In this document: one piece after another, positions 1-7,619 of the stretch
Numbering within the stretch: the first letter of the stretch is position 1
Layout: each line of letters begins with the position of its first letter
Assembly (NCBI GenBank): GCA_017652805.1
Contig: JAGCAH010000086.1
Location: 1 to 37,090, forward strand
Length of the DNA: 37,090 nucleotides
Direction of reading: 5' to 3'
Source: Thermoguttaceae bacterium
GTDB lineage: Bacteria; Planctomycetota; Planctomycetia; Pirellulales; Thermoguttaceae
Position numbers and translations under genes: made by a program
Notes under the pieces: generated by a model
Databases searched by the model: none
Told to the model about the DNA's origin: nothing
Seen by the model: the letters and a program-made list of their open reading frames with translations, nothing else

Positions 1-2359
1 CATCGTTGCCATTATAACCGGCATAATTGAGTGAAATAATGGTATTTGTTAGCGTAAGCGTGCCATAATCGTCGTTGCCAATCCCGCCGCCACTACCATC
101 AGAAGCGGTATTCCCAGAAATCGTCGAATTCGTAATGGTAAGCGTGCCGGAATCATTGAAAATCCCGCCGCCACCGCCAGAATTCCCCCCCGTAATCGTC
201 AGGCCGATCAGTTCAACCGGGTTCGCTTCGTCACCGCCGGAAACGTAAAAGACTCCGCTCTGCCCGTCGGCGTCAATCGTGATTCCGCCGATATCCGTCG
301 CGTCTATGGAAATCCCCTTATCAACCGTCAGTACTTCGCCAGAAAGAACGATCGTCTGACCGGAAAGCGAAGCGTCGAACGTGACCACCTCACCTTCGGC
401 GGCATAGGTAATCGCCTCGCGTAATGAAATCAGACCGTCCACTTCGTCAACAATGTCGAGTAAAATCGTCACAACGGTCGAGGGGGTCTCATGATACTCG
501 TACGCGCCGATATCGACGATCCCATTAACAATCCGCGGATTCCTGGCAATATCAAATTCGGCTGTGACGGCATCGTTCATCCCGGCGTCAATCGCCACGC
601 TCCCTTCGGTAAGCGAAAGATCAATCTCGTCGGCGTTAATCAGCAAACCGTCTTCATCAAAAACCGGAGCGACGACAAACCCGGGATCAAAGCCGATAAT
701 GTTATTGGTGCCGGAATCGGGATCGGAGGAGATATCTCCTTCAGAACAGTAGTCATAGTTGAGCGCGACGATACTGTTAGTGAGCGTCAGCGTGCCCTCA
801 CTGTAAATCCCGCTACAATACTCTTCCGCGGTATTCCCGGAAATGGTCGAGTTGATGACCGTCGACATTCCACCGTTGTAGATACCCGCGACCCATTCTG
901 CGGCATTCCCGAAAATGACCGAGTTGACGACCGACAGCGAACTACTATACCCTGTATAAATTCCGCCGCCGTCACGCCCGATATTCCCAGAGATGGTTGA
1001 ACCGGTAATCGTCAGCCAGCTATCATTGAAAATACCGCCACAACCGTTTTCTGATGTGTTTCCAGAGATGGTTGAACCGACAATCGTCAGAACGCCGTCG
1101 TTGAAAATTCCACCACCACAGTTGTAATCTAAACCTGTGTCTGCGTTCCCGGAAATCAACGAATTTATGACCGTCAGTTCTGTATGAACATAACTATTTC
1201 CATTATAGATCCCGCCGCCCGATTGTGCGGTATTTCCGGCGACCGTCGAATTCGTGACCGTCAGTAAACCTTCATTTAAGATCCCGCCGCCGTTGTGCCC
1301 ATTATCATCCGCATTCCCTCCTGTGATCGTCAGGCCAACAAGCTCTGTCGGTATTCTAATGTTGTTCAACACATCATCCTCGGAGGCGTTATGAACATAG
1401 AAGACCCGGCTCTTGCCGTCGGCGTTAATGGTCATCCCACCGATTGAAGTCGCGTCGATGATAATCCCCTTGGTGACTTCGATTTGAGAACCATTAAGTA
1501 TAATCGTTCCCCCCGCGAGATCTGAGGCAAACGTAATATTTTCACCCGTATTCGCCATACTGACCGCCTCTCGTAACGAGATGAGACCGTCAGTGTCATC
1601 AACAACGTCCTCCAGTGTGGTCACGACGATTGAAGACAGCTCCGTATGTCCTTGGTACTCATAAGCGCCAATGTCGACTGTGGGGATATCTCTCCATGAA
1701 GCAAAGATACGGGGTTCCCCGGCAAAATCGGTTTCTGTCTCGACGACAGAATTCGTTCCACGGTCGATAGCGATACTCTGTGCCGTAAGCGAAAGATCGA
1801 GTTCATCGGCGTTAATCAGAATCCCGTCTTCAAAAACCGGAGCGACGACAAAGCCGGGATCAAAACCGATGATGTTGTTGGTGCCGTGGATCCTCGCTCC
1901 ATTGGAATCATAAAAATCGCTCCCGTTTTCGGCGGAATTAAAAGTGATGATCGAATTGGTAATCGACACCCCTGCGTTAGATGAATAGGAAGAGGAGCCG
2001 TATAGATAAACCCCGCCGCCGGCGCTCCCCGCCCTCCCATCGAATCCCCTTCCTTCGCCTGACGCAACATTCCCCGAAATGGTCGTGCCGGTAATTGTCA
2101 GAGCACTACCACTATGGCAAATCCCGCCGCCGCAACCACCGTAGAAATCGCCGAGATAACCCGTAGGGAGTGCGGTATTCCCCGAAATGACCGAGTCGGT
2201 AACTGTCAGCGCGCCATCATTGTTGTTGAAAATCCCGGCGCCGAGTGTCGCGGTATTCCCCGAGATGGCTGTTCGTGCCACCGTCAACGCTCCGGAATTG
2301 AAGATTCCGCCACCTGATGAAGCAGTGTTCCCCGAAATAGTTGAGCCGATGATTGTCAT
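1..2359 (-). CDS. Beta-helix surface protein, continuation in the shifted frame (partial, runs off the left edge)
   Basis: Read from the ATG at 2359, this frame stays open to the window edge and continues the same modules: MTIIGSTISGNTAS, GGGIFN rungs, NNIIGFDPGFVVAPVFEDG, DIGAYEYQGH, then a new module near 1634 (ISLREAVSMA) and another near 482 (ISLREAITYA). It lacks its own signal peptide and is almost certainly the C-terminal part of the protein starting at 5511. The frames meet at ATGA (2356-2359), where the upstream stop overlaps this ATG, so coupled re-initiation is conceivable. One more G in the homopolymer (12 instead of 11) would fuse the two frames. The true C-terminus, and any anchor or sorting domain, lie outside the window. 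Confidence 0.8.
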   Translation of the reverse strand, partial: MTIIGSTISGNTASSGGGIFNSGALTVARTAISGNTATLGAGIFNNNDGALTVTDSVISGNTALPTGYLGDFYGGCGGGICHSGSALTITGTTISGNVASGEGRGFDGRAGSAGGGVYLYGSSSYSSNAGVSITNSIITFNSAENGSDFYDSNGARIHGTNNIIGFDPGFVVAPVFEDGILINADELDLSLTAQSIAIDRGTNSVVETETDFAGEPRIFASWRDIPTVDIGAYEYQGHTELSSIVVTTLEDVVDDTDGLISLREAVSMANTGENITFASDLAGGTIILNGSQIEVTKGIIIDATSIGGMTINADGKSRVFYVHNASEDDVLNNIRIPTELVGLTITGGNADDNGHNGGGILNEGLLTVTNSTVAGNTAQSGGGIYNGNSYVHTELTVINSLISGNADTGLDYNCGGGIFNDGVLTIVGSTISGNTSENGCGGIFNDSWLTITGSTISGNIGRDGGGIYTGYSSSLSVVNSVIFGNAAEWVAGIYNGGMSTVINSTISGNTAEEYCSGIYSEGTLTLTNSIVALNYDYCSEGDISSDPDSGTNNIIGFDPGFVVAPVFDEDGLLINADEIDLSLTEGSVAIDAGMNDAVTAEFDIARNPRIVNGIVDIGAYEYHETPSTVVTILLDIVDEVDGLISLREAITYAAEGEVVTFDASLSGQTIVLSGEVLTVDKGISIDATDIGGITIDADGQSGVFYVSGGDEANPVELIGLTITGGNSGGGGGIFNDSGTLTITNSTISGNTASDGSGGGIGNDDYGTLTLTNTIISLNYAGYNGND
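347..710. repeat. Long near-identical direct repeat, copy A (pairs with about 3091-3448)
   Basis: About 350 bases match the stretch starting at 3091 almost base for base, apart from scattered substitutions and two 3-base differences (near 482 and near 656). The copy covers the ISLREAI segment boundary and the DIGAYEY/IDAGMNDAV segment of adjacent modules. The indels keep the frame, as expected under selection for coding. Confidence 0.8.
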
Positions 2360-5300
2360 TGTGTCGCCGTTGGCAATCCCCCCCCCCCGCCGGAACCGCC
2401 GGAACCTGCGGCAGTATTCCCGGTGATTATCGAATCGATAATCGTCACCGTACTTTCACTACCAGTATAGAAATTATTCCAGTTGTTAATCCCTCCGCCG
2501 CGGCCTCCGTAACTATTTGAATTATTCCCCGAGATGGTTGAACCAATGATCGTCAGTGTGGCATGAATGTTAAAGATCCCGCCTCCACCTGCGCCACTTC
2601 CGCTGGTATTGGAATTGTTCCCCGAAACGGTCGAATTGGTGATCGTCATTACCCCCTCGTAATTGTAGATTCCACCACCTTCCCCTTCTGAAGTATTCTC
2701 GGAAATGGTTGAATCAATAACCGAAACCGTTCCGGAAAGGTTAATGATCCCGCCGCCGCCATAGCGGGAGTATCCCGAGCTGTTCCCGGAGATGGTCGAA
2801 CCGACAACCGTCAACATACCTTCGTTGTAAATCCCACCGCCTTCATAAGAAGCGGTATTCCCAGAAATCGTCGAATTCGTAATTGTAAGCGTGCCTTGAT
2901 TGAAAATCCCGCCACCAGAGGGGCAATTCCCCCCAGTAATCGTCAGGCCGATCAGTTCAACCGGGCTCGTCTCGTCGCCACCGATGATGTCGAACACCCA
3001 GCTCTGCCCGGCGGCGTCAATCGTAATCCCGCCGATATCCGTCGCGTCGATGGCCAGACTCTTGTTGACGGTTAATTCCGAACCGCCCAAAACGATCGTC
3101 TGACCGGAAAGCGAAGCGTCGAACGTGACCACCTCACCTTCGGCGGCATAGGCAATCGCCTCGCGTAATGAAATCAGACTATCCCATTCGTCAACAATAT
3201 CGAGTAAAGTCGTCACAACGGTCGAGGTCTCATGATACTCATAAGCGCCGATATCGACGATCCCATTAACAATCCGCGGATTCCCCGCAATATCAAATTC
3301 GGTTGTGACGGCATCGTTCATCCCGGCGTCAATCGCCACGCTCCCTTCGGTAAGCGAAAGATCAATCTCGTCGGCGTTAATCAGCACACCGTCTTCAAAG
3401 ACTGGAGCGACGGCAAAACCGGGATCAAAGCCAATGATGTTGTTGCTACCGTCGAAGGAAATGTCGATATCGTCAGAGTAGTCATAGGAATCATCGACCC
3501 AGCTGCGATTGAGAGCGACAATGCTGTTTGTAAGGGTCAGTTCATAACGACGTCCGCCACCGATTCCGCAGGAAATCCCGTTACAACCAGCGTATCTCGA
3601 GGTATTCCCGGCGATGGTTGAATTAACAATTGTCGCAGATCCAAAAGCAAGACATATTCCGCCGCAATCTGAGCCAGCACTGTTCCCATAGATGACTGAA
3701 TTAGTAATTGTAAGATCGCCGTCGTTCCAAACCCCACCGCCTTCGCCAGATTCTCCAGTATTATTCCCGGAAATCGTCGAATTCACAATCGTCAAATCAC
3801 AGTAGAAGGAGTTGAAGAATCCACCGCCATACCATGCTACAGTATTTCGGGTAACTGTCGAGTTGATAATCGTCAATGAAGCGTTGCGATGATCATAGTT
3901 AAAATTTACTCCGTTACTAATCCCGCCACCAAAGCTCCCCGACGTATTTTCCGTAATGAGCGTGTTCGTAACGGTGAGAGTCCCCTCATTGCAAATCCCG
4001 CCGCCTGAGACCATGGAACTGTAATCCCCAGTGTAATTGATGACATTCCCTGTAATGGTTGAATCGGTTATTGCCAGTACGCCGCGGTTAAAGATCCCGC
4101 CGCCGTGATCATTGGTCAACACACCCCCGGTAACGGTCAGGCCGATCAGTTCAACCGGGTTCATTTCGTCTCCGCCAGTAATGTAAAAGACCCGGCTTTT
4201 CCCGTCGGCGTCGATCGTGATCCCGCCGATACCTGTGGCGTCAACAGTTATCCCCTTGGTAATTTCAAGTTGTGAGCCGTCGAGCGTGATCGTTCCGTCG
4301 GCAAGAGTGCTGTCAAACGTGACCGTATCACCTTCAGAGGCATAAAAAACAGCTTCCCGAAGGGAAATCATGCCATCGGTTGTGTCAAAGATATCCAAAA
4401 GAGTTGTAACAACCGTCGAGGGAGATTCGGTATTTCCTTGATACTCATACGCGCCGATATCGACCGTCCCGCCGACAATCCGCGGATTTCCGGCAATGTC
4501 GAATTCCGTTTCGACCGCGTCGTTCGTACCGGTGTTGATCGCCGCACTTCCCGCGGCTAGCGAAAGATCAAGCGTGGCGGCATTGGTCAGTACGCCCGAT
4601 TCGTCAAAGACAGGGGCAACGACGAAACCCGGGTCATTACCGACGATATTGTTGCTCCCTGAGTAGGAACCGACGTTGTCAAGACTACCGGCATAATTGA
4701 GTGAAACAATGGTATTTGTCAGCGTAAGCATGTCAGAATAGTAGTTGCAAATCCCGCCGCCTTCATAAGAAGCGGTATTCCCAGAAATCGTCGAATTCGT
4801 AATGGTAAGTGTGCCAGATTCGTAGTGAATCCCGCCGCCATAAAAAGCGGTATTCCCAGAAATCGTCGAATTCGTAATGGTAAGCGTGCCTTCACCGTTG
4901 TAATTGTAAATCCCGCCGCCGCCACTAGAAGCGGTATTCCAGGAAATCGTCGAATTTGTAATGATAAGTGTGCCTTTACCGTTGTAATTGTAAATCCCGC
5001 CGCCATAAGAAGCGGTATTCCCAGAAATTGTCGAATTCGTAATGGTAAGCGTGCCATAATTGTAAATCCCGCCGCCGTAGCTGTTGTCCCCCCCCGTAAT
5101 CGTCAGGCCGATCAGTTCAACCGAGCTCGTCTCGTCGCCACCGATGATGTTGAACACCCGGCTCTGCCCGTCGGCGTCAATCGTGATCCCGCCGATACCC
5201 GTCGCATCTATGGAAATCCCCTTTTCAACCGTCAGCTCTTCACCAGAAAGAACGATCGTCTGACCGGAAAGCGAAGCGTCGAACAGAATCGTGTCGCCTT

Positions 5301-5511
5301 CCGTAGCGATGTCAATCGCTTCGCGCAGAGAAAGAATGTCATCGGACGTGTCCCAGCTTGTCGGGTCGTCCGTTGTGTTAACCAACCAGGTCGACGCCTC
5401 GGTCGGGGCGGCGTGCGCCGCCTGTGCCATTCCGCCAGCGACGACGGCTAAAAGGGTCCGTTCTTCAAGAGATTCAAGACGAAGTTTTCGGGATTTAAAG
5501 CTGGCATTCAT
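2356..5511 (-). CDS. Giant modular right-handed beta-helix surface protein, N-terminal part (ends at a frameshift)
   Basis: Secreted surface protein of the polymorphic-membrane-protein/parallel beta-helix type; its ligand is unknown. The N-terminus carries the planctomycete motif LESLEERTLLA (about residues 12-22), a hydrophobic stretch and a likely cleavage near AHA-AP (about residue 34). The body is built of modules. Each opens with an ISLREAI segment (CSLREA-type), continues through GGITIDADGQSRVF and VELIGLTITGG into many GGGIYN / LTITNSTISGNTA helix rungs, and closes with NNIIGFDPGF...IDIGAYEY-like text. Module borders lie near 4425 and 3226. The ATG at 5511 follows AAAGGAGA at a good distance. 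The frame ends abruptly after five Gly codons in an 11-G run (2378-2388). The following frame continues the same repeats, so this is the front half of one longer gene. Family assignment is firm; function is inferred. Confidence 0.88.
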   Translation of the reverse strand: MNASFKSRKLRLESLEERTLLAVVAGGMAQAAHAAPTEASTWLVNTTDDPTSWDTSDDILSLREAIDIATEGDTILFDASLSGQTIVLSGEELTVEKGISIDATGIGGITIDADGQSRVFNIIGGDETSSVELIGLTITGGDNSYGGGIYNYGTLTITNSTISGNTASYGGGIYNYNGKGTLIITNSTISWNTASSGGGGIYNYNGEGTLTITNSTISGNTAFYGGGIHYESGTLTITNSTISGNTASYEGGGICNYYSDMLTLTNTIVSLNYAGSLDNVGSYSGSNNIVGNDPGFVVAPVFDESGVLTNAATLDLSLAAGSAAINTGTNDAVETEFDIAGNPRIVGGTVDIGAYEYQGNTESPSTVVTTLLDIFDTTDGMISLREAVFYASEGDTVTFDSTLADGTITLDGSQLEITKGITVDATGIGGITIDADGKSRVFYITGGDEMNPVELIGLTVTGGVLTNDHGGGIFNRGVLAITDSTITGNVINYTGDYSSMVSGGGICNEGTLTVTNTLITENTSGSFGGGISNGVNFNYDHRNASLTIINSTVTRNTVAWYGGGFFNSFYCDLTIVNSTISGNNTGESGEGGGVWNDGDLTITNSVIYGNSAGSDCGGICLAFGSATIVNSTIAGNTSRYAGCNGISCGIGGGRRYELTLTNSIVALNRSWVDDSYDYSDDIDISFDGSNNIIGFDPGFAVAPVFEDGVLINADEIDLSLTEGSVAIDAGMNDAVTTEFDIAGNPRIVNGIVDIGAYEYHETSTVVTTLLDIVDEWDSLISLREAIAYAAEGEVVTFDASLSGQTIVLGGSELTVNKSLAIDATDIGGITIDAAGQSWVFDIIGGDETSPVELIGLTITGGNCPSGGGIFNQGTLTITNSTISGNTASYEGGGIYNEGMLTVVGSTISGNSSGYSRYGGGGIINLSGTVSVIDSTISENTSEGEGGGIYNYEGVMTITNSTVSGNNSNTSGSGAGGGGIFNIHATLTIIGSTISGNNSNSYGGRGGGINNWNNFYTGSESTVTIIDSIITGNTAAGSGGSGGGGGLPTATQ
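2378..2388. repeat. 11-base C homopolymer (G run on the coding strand) at the frameshift
   Basis: Eleven consecutive C on the plus strand, read as G11 in the gene. Equivalent points in the other rungs read as short Gly-Gly-Gly codons (typically GGCGGG), so this long pure run is local. G9 or G12 would keep the frame; G11 breaks it. It is either a slipped-strand phase-variation tract or a sequencing/assembly error. Confidence 0.85.
3091..3448. repeat. Long near-identical direct repeat, copy B (pairs with about 347-710)
   Basis: Second copy of the intragenic repeat, about 2.7 kb from copy A. A shorter similar pair lies at about 2936-3000 and 5096-5160 (the VELIGLTITGG segment). Nearly unchanged DNA between modules points to recent duplication or gene conversion. 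Confidence 0.8.
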
Positions 5512-5744
5512 ATCAATCTCCTTTATTTGAAACTAAGTAACTAAGAAATGACTTTTGCTTGGGTTTGGCAGAGTCCGCCCCATCGGGATTCGGTTCCGTC
5601 AGGGAACACCCCGAAAAGGCAAAAACAACACAGGGGAATGTTAAAATTCGTCTGTAAAACCTGCGGGTTAAACAAAACAGCGGGTTGCTCTATCAGTCCA
5701 AACGGGAGATCAAAACAACCGCACATTCAAAAGACTCCCTCCCG

Positions 5745-5772
5745 ATTCTATCCGCCCCATTCAGCTTGTCAA
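5745..5772 (-). promoter_or_regulatory. Sigma70-like promoter for the beta-helix gene, with a palindrome over the -35
   Basis: On the minus strand TTGACA (5772-5767) is followed after 16 bases by TAGAAT (5750-5745). Transcription would start near 5738, leaving a leader of roughly 225 bases. The -35 sits in a small inverted repeat, TTGTC-AATTC-GACAA (5766-5780), which could be an operator. The same TTGACA/TAGAAT pair recurs upstream of tatA. Confidence 0.5.
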
Positions 5773-5780
5773 TTCGACAA

Positions 5781-6260
5781 ACTCTTTTCCACACAAAAAA
5801 AGCTGAAATTTCAACATTTTCGAAATCAGAAAAGCAAATTCTGAAATTCCGGGTAATTTGCGCCAAGCAGTAAAACCAAAAGCGTCCGTTCCCCGATATT
5901 GAACGCCCCCTTGATATCCCCGGAACCGCCTTTCCTTTACAGGCGACTCTGAGGCTCTTGCTTCCCGTTTTCGCCCGCGTCACCCAGTGAGGCGCCGAAA
6001 TCCCGCCGAAACCGGAACGGAAAGAATCGTCCGCCGAAGTCGAGGCCTTGCCGTTGTTCGGCACAGGCAAGCCGCGGGGGGCTTCTAAAAATCAGCAACG
6101 GGGTCATAATGGAGCTTGAGTGAATCCGGCCCGATATCGGGAGTAGTTTCTTCCGCTTCGGCGGGTTCGCGCGCCTTGATTTGCGTTTAACGGTTCCTAC
6201 CGCGCAACCGACCGGCGGGGACCTTCGGACAACGTTTATTTCCAGAAAGGACGATTTTCA
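5781..6260. other. Intergenic region with no supported gene
   Basis: The first ~90 bases are AT-rich and the rest is GC-richer. Short open frames occur on both strands, but none has a recognisable domain, a convincing ribosome site or a conserved motif. No clear plus-strand promoter for the phosphofructokinase gene was found, though AGAAAGGA (6244-6251) is its likely ribosome site. Confidence 0.5.
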
Positions 6261-7619
6261 ATGTCGATTCCGCTTGCCAGTCCCAAGAAACCCGTTTCTG
6301 ATGTCAAAAAGGTCGCTATCCTTTTCTCCGGCGGACCCGCTCCCGCCGCCAACGCGGTGATCGGAAGCGCCGCCGCCTGTTTCCAGCAGGCGGGGGTCGA
6401 AGTCTACGGAATGAAGCATGGGTACACCTATCTGGCCGACTATAAAGACGGCGACGTCCTCAAAGAGGGTGAGGCTTATATCCGTCTCGACAAGGAAAAT
6501 CTCGAAGGGCTGCGAACCGAACAGGGAATCTGCATCGGCACCGCCCGCGTCAATCCCGGAAAACATCTCAAAACCCACGCCGACCTTCACGATCCCGAAA
6601 AGACCGCGCCCCTGATGACCGTCTATAAGGCGCTCTGCTCGATGGGAATCGACGCGCTCGTCTCGATCGGCGGCGACGATACCCTGACGACCGCCGCCAA
6701 GTTCAAGCTCTTCATGGACGACCTTCCGGCCGACCAGAAGCGGCTCAAGATCGTCCATCTGCCGAAAACGATCGACAACGACTACGAAGGGATCCCGTTC
6801 ACGTTCGGTTATTTCACCGCCGTCGAAATGCTCGCCAAGCAGATCCGCAACCTCCTGGCCGACTCGCAGGCCGCCGGCGGCGGGTATGTCTGCCAGCTGA
6901 TGGGACGGAAAGCCGCGTGGCTCGCCTACGGCGCCGCGGTCGCCGGAGAGGCGAGTCTGGTAATCGGGCTCGAAGATATGCCCGAAGAATGGCAGACAAA
7001 AGAAGAGACGATCGACCCCGAAACGGGAAAGGTAATCAACGACGCCGACGGCAAACCGCTCATGCGGACCGTCTTCGATATGCAGAAGGTCGTTAATCAC
7101 TGCGTCGACGTGATCCAGGCGCGTGAAAAGATGGGGAACGACAGCTTCGTCGCCATCATTTCCGAAGGGATCGCCGAATTCCTCCCGATCGCCGAGATCC
7201 GCAAGTGCATCTCCGACGACGAGTACCGTTCGCTCAAACCGGACTCGTTCGGGCACTTCCCCGTCTCGCAGCTGAAATACAGCAGCCGCCTGGGCCGCCT
7301 GATCGCCGAAGAGTACAAGAAACGAACCGGTAAACCGCGCAAGATGGTCGGACTCCAGTTCGGCTATGAGGTTCGCTGCAACGCCCCCACGGCGTACGAT
7401 GTGATTCTGGGAAGCCAGATCGGGGTCGGCTGCTACCGCGCCCTCTGCGAAAACAATATCAGCGGCGTGATGATCTCGGTTCAGGACACGATGAATCTCA
7501 GCTATCCCCGGTTCGAGGATCTGATCAACATGGAGAAACTCCGCGCCTATCAGCGTCCGGTCAAGGTCGGGAGTGACATTCACCAGATGGCCCGTTATCT
7601 GGAAGCCTGGACGGAGTGA
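6261..7619 (+). CDS. pfp: Pyrophosphate-dependent 6-phosphofructokinase (PPi-PFK)
   Basis: Cytoplasmic enzyme of the phosphofructokinase family, interconverting fructose 6-phosphate and fructose 1,6-bisphosphate. Donor-site residues point to pyrophosphate rather than ATP: GGDDT (residues 137-141), where ATP enzymes usually have GGDG, and PKTIDND (168-174), where ATP enzymes usually have PGTIDND. The catalytic TIDND core and the MGR motif (214-216) are present. At 452 residues it is longer than bacterial ATP-PFK (about 320), as expected for a PPi type. The ATG at 6261 follows AGAAAGGA. With PPi the step is reversible, so the enzyme could serve glycolysis and gluconeogenesis. Family is certain; PPi use is inferred from the two residues. 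Confidence 0.93.
   Translation: MSIPLASPKKPVSDVKKVAILFSGGPAPAANAVIGSAAACFQQAGVEVYGMKHGYTYLADYKDGDVLKEGEAYIRLDKENLEGLRTEQGICIGTARVNPGKHLKTHADLHDPEKTAPLMTVYKALCSMGIDALVSIGGDDTLTTAAKFKLFMDDLPADQKRLKIVHLPKTIDNDYEGIPFTFGYFTAVEMLAKQIRNLLADSQAAGGGYVCQLMGRKAAWLAYGAAVAGEASLVIGLEDMPEEWQTKEETIDPETGKVINDADGKPLMRTVFDMQKVVNHCVDVIQAREKMGNDSFVAIISEGIAEFLPIAEIRKCISDDEYRSLKPDSFGHFPVSQLKYSSRLGRLIAEEYKKRTGKPRKMVGLQFGYEVRCNAPTAYDVILGSQIGVGCYRALCENNISGVMISVQDTMNLSYPRFEDLINMEKLRAYQRPVKVGSDIHQMARYLEAWTE

Follow-up and report, generated by a model that had tools for sequence, protein, structure and literature searches.

A giant beta-helix gene is split at a G11 tract

The window, by which we mean the whole 37,090-nucleotide stretch that was analysed, corresponds to contig C10 in a metagenome-assembled genome of 2.68 Mb (286 contigs, 87% complete) from a Thermoguttaceae bacterium, probably a gut-dwelling planctomycete. 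The contig ends at window position 1, and the minus-strand gene that lies there lacks its 3′ end. The features of this gene are as follows:

5745-5772, minus strand: predicted promoter, TTGACA-(AGCTGAATGGGGCGGA, 16 nt)-TAGAAT (sequence)
5518-5523, minus strand: AAGGAG ribosome-binding site before the ATG at 5511 (sequence)
2356-5511, minus strand: 5′ frame of 1051 aa with N-terminus MNASFKSRKLRLESLEERTLLA, beta-helix repeats and choice-of-anchor Q and CSLREA domains (open reading frame, domain matches)
2378-2388, minus strand: G11 homopolymer, site of the frame break (sequence and frame reading)
2356-2359, minus strand: ATGA, overlap of the stop of frame 1 with a possible start of frame 2 (sequence)
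2-2359, minus strand: continuation of the same gene in the other frame, 786 aa from the ATG, beta-helix (PF13229), running off the contig (open reading frame, domain matches)

The plus strand at the tract reads ggcaatCCCCCCCCCCCgccgg, and its C-run occupies exactly 2378-2388, which gives G11 on the coding strand of a beta-helix protein as the first-pass annotation had described; the interval given there, 2356-2388, is the tract plus the stop. The 5′ frame terminates shortly past the tract at a TGA (2358-2356). The downstream frame is already open from about 2455, ahead of the tract, has its first ATG at 2359-2357 and stays open to the contig end. The earlier reading of the same repeat text in different frames was also borne out: GGGI..LTI..STISGN repeats and the NCBIfam domains choice_anch_Q and CSLREA are common to both sides. 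We thus confirmed that G11 separates two frames of one beta-helix surface-protein gene. An intact frame requires a tract length divisible by 3, so that one more G restores the long frame, as had been noted. From this frame arithmetic and the domains shared across the tract, a change of one unit would decide between a truncated and a long product, the end of the latter lying beyond the contig.

The product resembles planctomycete extracellular proteins

Frame 2 passes the cut-off for PF13229 (Beta_helix). An AlphaFold model of frame 2 with ten paralogues gave beta-helices (mean pLDDT 70), with beta-helix neighbours at Z 22-27 over residues 240-616, and fits a right-handed beta-helix fold. The nearest solved structure to the frame 2 model was rhombotarget A (PDB 9cdu/9cdv; VIA-align Z 27.4, 301 residues, 3.4 Å). 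A match to TIGR04212, far under its cut-off, goes with this structural likeness. The two differ in that no rhombosortase anchor was seen in the window protein, whose C-terminus is missing from the contig. A sequence search with frame 1 returned no solved-structure match, and NCBIfam returned no match to the first 40 residues. At the N-terminus, PF07595 (Planc_extracel, LEPR-XLL-like) scored 18.5 bits at residues 7-23 against a cut-off of 25.5, and a KLRLESLEERTLLA-like motif occurs in 25 genes in the examined genome stretches; MNASFKSRKLRLESLEERTLLA looks like an N-terminus of the planctomycete extracellular type. Together with the rhombotarget A match, this N-terminus upholds the proposal of a planctomycete surface-type beta-helix protein.

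A likeness to the rungs of chlamydial polymorphic membrane proteins had also been proposed. The resemblance stands, and paralogue L038 exceeds the Chlam_PMP (PF02415) cut-off of 20.6 bits with 29.9 bits, but the window protein itself stays under it at 14.0 bits. A further difference from the chlamydial proteins lies at the C-terminal end: complete paralogues carry fn3 and then Dockerin_1 close to this end, and no autotransporter domain was reported for them. The two paralogues with an fn3-like and type I dockerin end are:

L054, 6072-8612 (aa 758-807)
L057, 8620-11829 (aa 979-1030)

These ends suggest cohesin-type attachment in planctomycetes of the window's genus.

Long coding G-runs are avoided across the protein family

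As many G9 words as in the window were reached in 7 of 100 dinucleotide shuffles of its sequence, so the length of the tract alone is not compelling. Its position is more specific: within its own genome, where the gene has dozens of paralogous matches, no run of ten or more Gs other than G11 falls within a clear coding frame, and it is precisely at G11 that the frame is lost.

We compared coding G-runs in 65 paralogous frames with a null that shuffles synonymous codons, within amino acids only and gene by gene. Runs of at least eight Gs numbered 17 against 50.9 expected and runs of at least nine Gs 8 against 20.3; because the window tract, being scored in each of its two frames, enters the observed number two times, this depletion is conservative. 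Long coding G-runs are avoided family-wide, coding tracts are not kept above chance, and there is no sign of selection for the coding tract. This avoidance favours an incidental rather than an evolved coding switch.

Among these 65 open frames, from five congeneric genomes, only two are broken. One break is at the window's G11, the longest coding G-run in the family. The other is at a G8 in a beta-helix gene of G002 (L092 about 8103, reverse strand; G002:C75), of which the orthologue and four close homologues are intact. The remaining coding G9-G10 tracts of the family are all in frame, and in the examined sequence of the genus 25 other tracts of at least nine Gs (G9-G14) are spanned by long open frames. 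Loss of mutS was rejected as a cause of the tracts, since the gene is present in each of the seven genomes from this genus.

The 25-mers flanking G11 are unique in the examined sequence of the window's genome (G000), and a collapsed repeat at the tract was rejected on this ground. A flank-anchored pattern search of genome and viral contig collections recovered no other copy of the tract region. The beta-helix gene adjoins a conserved PFK-GH57-like pair (window 5511-6261). Its phosphofructokinase neighbour shares 91-97% identity with those of G002, G003, G004 and G006 and 79% with that of G001. By synteny, five congeners lack the beta-helix gene at the PFK/GH57 locus, which leaves no positional orthologue and no orthologous tract and suggests recent insertion or loss. 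The comparison with relatives that the first-pass annotation had called for hence neither confirms nor refutes its reading.

Poly-G tracts form promoter spacers in the window's genus

When the tracts of ten or more Gs were listed for seven genomes of the genus, a recurrent layout emerged, TTGACA-(3 to 6 nt)-G10-G16-TATAAT-like. An exact TTGACA lies 3-6 nt before the tract in 10 of the 42 distinct tracts, compared with none in the other-strand control and a chance expectation of about 0.1 (42 tracts, 9 offsets, 1 in 4096). Both the -35 and -10 elements, with at most one mismatch in the first, accompany 10/42 tracts. The genes behind the spacer tracts are mostly LEPR-XLL-like and mostly beta-helix, the same type as the window gene, so that paralogues in the genus do have a homopolymer between -35 and -10 ahead of surface genes. 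Spacer tracts of G11-G16 running from TTGACA or TTTACA to a TATAAT-like box are found at:

G003, L062 4929-4944 (C18:20928-20943)
G003, L054 5989-5999 (C23:43988)
G003, L129 704-714 (C5)
G003, L134 (C14:479115)
G004, L079 1488-1498 (C125)
G004, L080 2864-2874 (C152)
G006, L150 (C114:56677)

A further promoter tract lies at G006:C170:16884. The window's own genome holds two more sites:

L012 964-991 (G000:C213): TTGACA-CGCGTT-G10-TATACT, upstream of a protein of unknown family
L004 8730-8744 and 9543-9556 (G000:C52): tandem poly-C (15 and 14) just before TATAAT, at genes for small membrane-type proteins

Two promoter copies within G003 are 96% identical over 765 bp and carry tracts of G16 and G11, which indicates that such tracts do change length. 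The flanks of the tandem pair on G000:C52 are 95% identical over 198 bp, and this pair is likely a duplicated variable promoter.

The layout appears porA-like. In Neisseria meningitidis, a poly-G tract separates the -35 and -10 elements of the porA promoter, with 11G in strain 8047 and 9G or 10G in variants (PMC3639595). The TTGACA-N3-6-G10-16-TATAAT-like promoters of the genus also precede surface-type genes, and their tract lengths overlap those of porA. The window gene differs from porA in that its tract is in coding sequence and its own promoter spacer is interrupted: AGCTGAATGGGGCGGA is G-rich and not a homopolymer, unlike a porA-type spacer. In the window's genome, three beta-helix genes (at L036, L043 and window 5745-5772) have a TTGACA followed by a G-rich interrupted spacer. 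Such spacers are perhaps stabilised remnants of poly-G spacers. The idea of poly-G variation of giant surface genes has better support from the spacer tracts in relatives than from the window's coding tract. The lineage's evolved device, if one exists, is the promoter-spacer tract.

Similar promoters occur beyond the genus

With tracts of G9 or more, the pattern was present in 12 of 396 genomes of the order and the reversed-pattern control in none of the 396. The matches were concentrated in the window's genus and in a second genus of the family, g18, where they fall at eight places in G066, four in G247 and one each in G290 and G023:

G066: L159, L164, L166, L169-L173
G247: L181, L184-L186
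G023: L158
G290: L180

The g18 consensus spacers are 14-17 nt long, with as many as eight of these promoters in a genome, and the genes downstream include secreted PEP-CTERM or autotransporter-type beta-strand-repeat proteins and a DUF1559 pseudopilin-like gene.

A scan of genomes from all bacteria gave at least 120 stretches with the layout, mostly from gut Clostridia, Bacilli and Candidatus Ancillula among the matches listed. As the layout is common across bacteria, it represents a familiar and widely distributed kind; the novelty lies in where planctomycetes carry it and which genes it targets there. TTGACA-G10+-TAWAAT was common in gut bacteria (L187, L191, L199, L203, L214, L222, L253 and others), and the Candidatus Ancillula genome Gsp477_bin129 carried such promoters on at least seven contigs. 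Our search of the open-access literature brought up no account of phase variation in planctomycetes; the term "phase-variable" in one planctomycete paper refers to microscopy.

Origin of the frame break

With a confidence that we would put at about even, we interpret G11 as a site of slipped-strand mispairing in a giant beta-helix surface gene, of which the assembled consensus captures the OFF length. Mispairing would add or drop one G at G11, and this one-G change would toggle the protein between an N-terminal fragment of 1051 aa and its long form, presumably often and reversibly. By analogy with the complete paralogues, the OFF form would be without the C-terminal fn3 and dockerin end. G11 would then be a contingency tract of the ORF type in a lineage that otherwise puts such tracts in promoter spacers. 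The proposed mechanism, in which gain or loss of a G shifts the frame, is that of lgtG in meningococci (named in PMC3639595); for lgtG, experiments have demonstrated the switching, whereas the window gene is known at one tract length.

Since the break falls at the longest coding G-run of the family, slippage is its simplest cause, in the cell or in sequencing, and the second family break, at the G8 in G002, indicates that slippage-type breaks recur. We think it probable that the break itself is present in the cell population and, if it is real, very probable that it reverses at high frequency. That the coding tract is an evolved switch is doubtful. The phase-variable surface protein envisaged by the first-pass annotation is partly supported, being favoured by the tract lying at the frame break and disfavoured by the family's avoidance of long coding G-runs. 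Other observations that count against slipped-strand switching are the single assembly for the window's species and the missing positional orthologue. In addition, freely toggling tracts would be expected often out of frame, yet the other G9 and G10 tracts are in frame. Moreover, the contig breaks off within the gene, among repeats, which is where an assembly can be trusted least.

An error in the consensus is an unlikely but serious alternative. The true tract would be in frame, the metagenome assembly would have lost or gained a G, and the locus would hold one unbroken giant gene. That the sequence comes from one metagenome assembly in many contigs, incomplete as a whole, and that the tract sits in a gene full of repeats with the contig end 2.4 kb away both speak for it. 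There is also a precedent: coding poly-G tracts in the pmp genes of Chlamydia psittaci 6BC kept the frame in one assembly and broke it in a second, and the study left artefact versus slippage undecided (PMC3323650). The window gene is alike in that poly-G within the coding sequence of a beta-helix-type surface protein leaves the gene out of frame in an assembly, as was reported of three pmp genes in C. psittaci (PMC3323650). An error is countered by the unique flanking 25-mers and by the 25 tracts of the genus that open frames span, which indicate that the consensus is not usually wrong at tracts of this kind.

We regard it as improbable that the frameshift is recent and fixed, in a copy decaying among redundant paralogues and with no useful reversible switching. 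The many paralogous matches in the genome would fit such decay, as would the interrupted promoter spacer of the window gene and its lack of a counterpart in five congeners, which may point to a recent acquisition that the cell can spare; against it, neither the 786 codons after the tract nor the 1051 before it contain a further stop or break. Programmed slippage of RNA polymerase or of the ribosome, yielding some full-length product, is very improbable: G11 is a possible slippery stretch and the frame downstream is open for 786 codons, but no homologue conserves a frame transition at the tract.

Still less credible is a pair of genes coupled by stop-restart, for although the frames do meet at ATGA (2359-2356) as first annotated, the overlap arises incidentally from the rung codons ACA ATG ACA, which read one base off give TGA, and it was rejected on that account; both frames form one repeat array with rung phase kept across the tract, the ATG is an in-frame rung codon (T-M-T-I), and the second start has no secretion signal and no Shine-Dalgarno sequence seen before the ATGA at 2356-2359.

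Implications

Taking slipped-strand switching at G11 together with the spacer tracts of its relatives, we consider it possible, at slightly less than even confidence, that gut planctomycetes of the Thermoguttaceae and their kin run poly-G contingency loci that vary giant surface beta-proteins, mostly through -35/-10 spacers and occasionally through coding tracts. Simple-repeat phase variation has been studied chiefly in pathogens. If our proposal is true, this would be the first such variation described in Planctomycetota, and some "broken" giant genes in metagenome assemblies would be switches and not errors. Commensal planctomycetes would then vary giant surface proteins stochastically, which would bear on their persistence in the gut in the face of phage, host immunity and neighbours.
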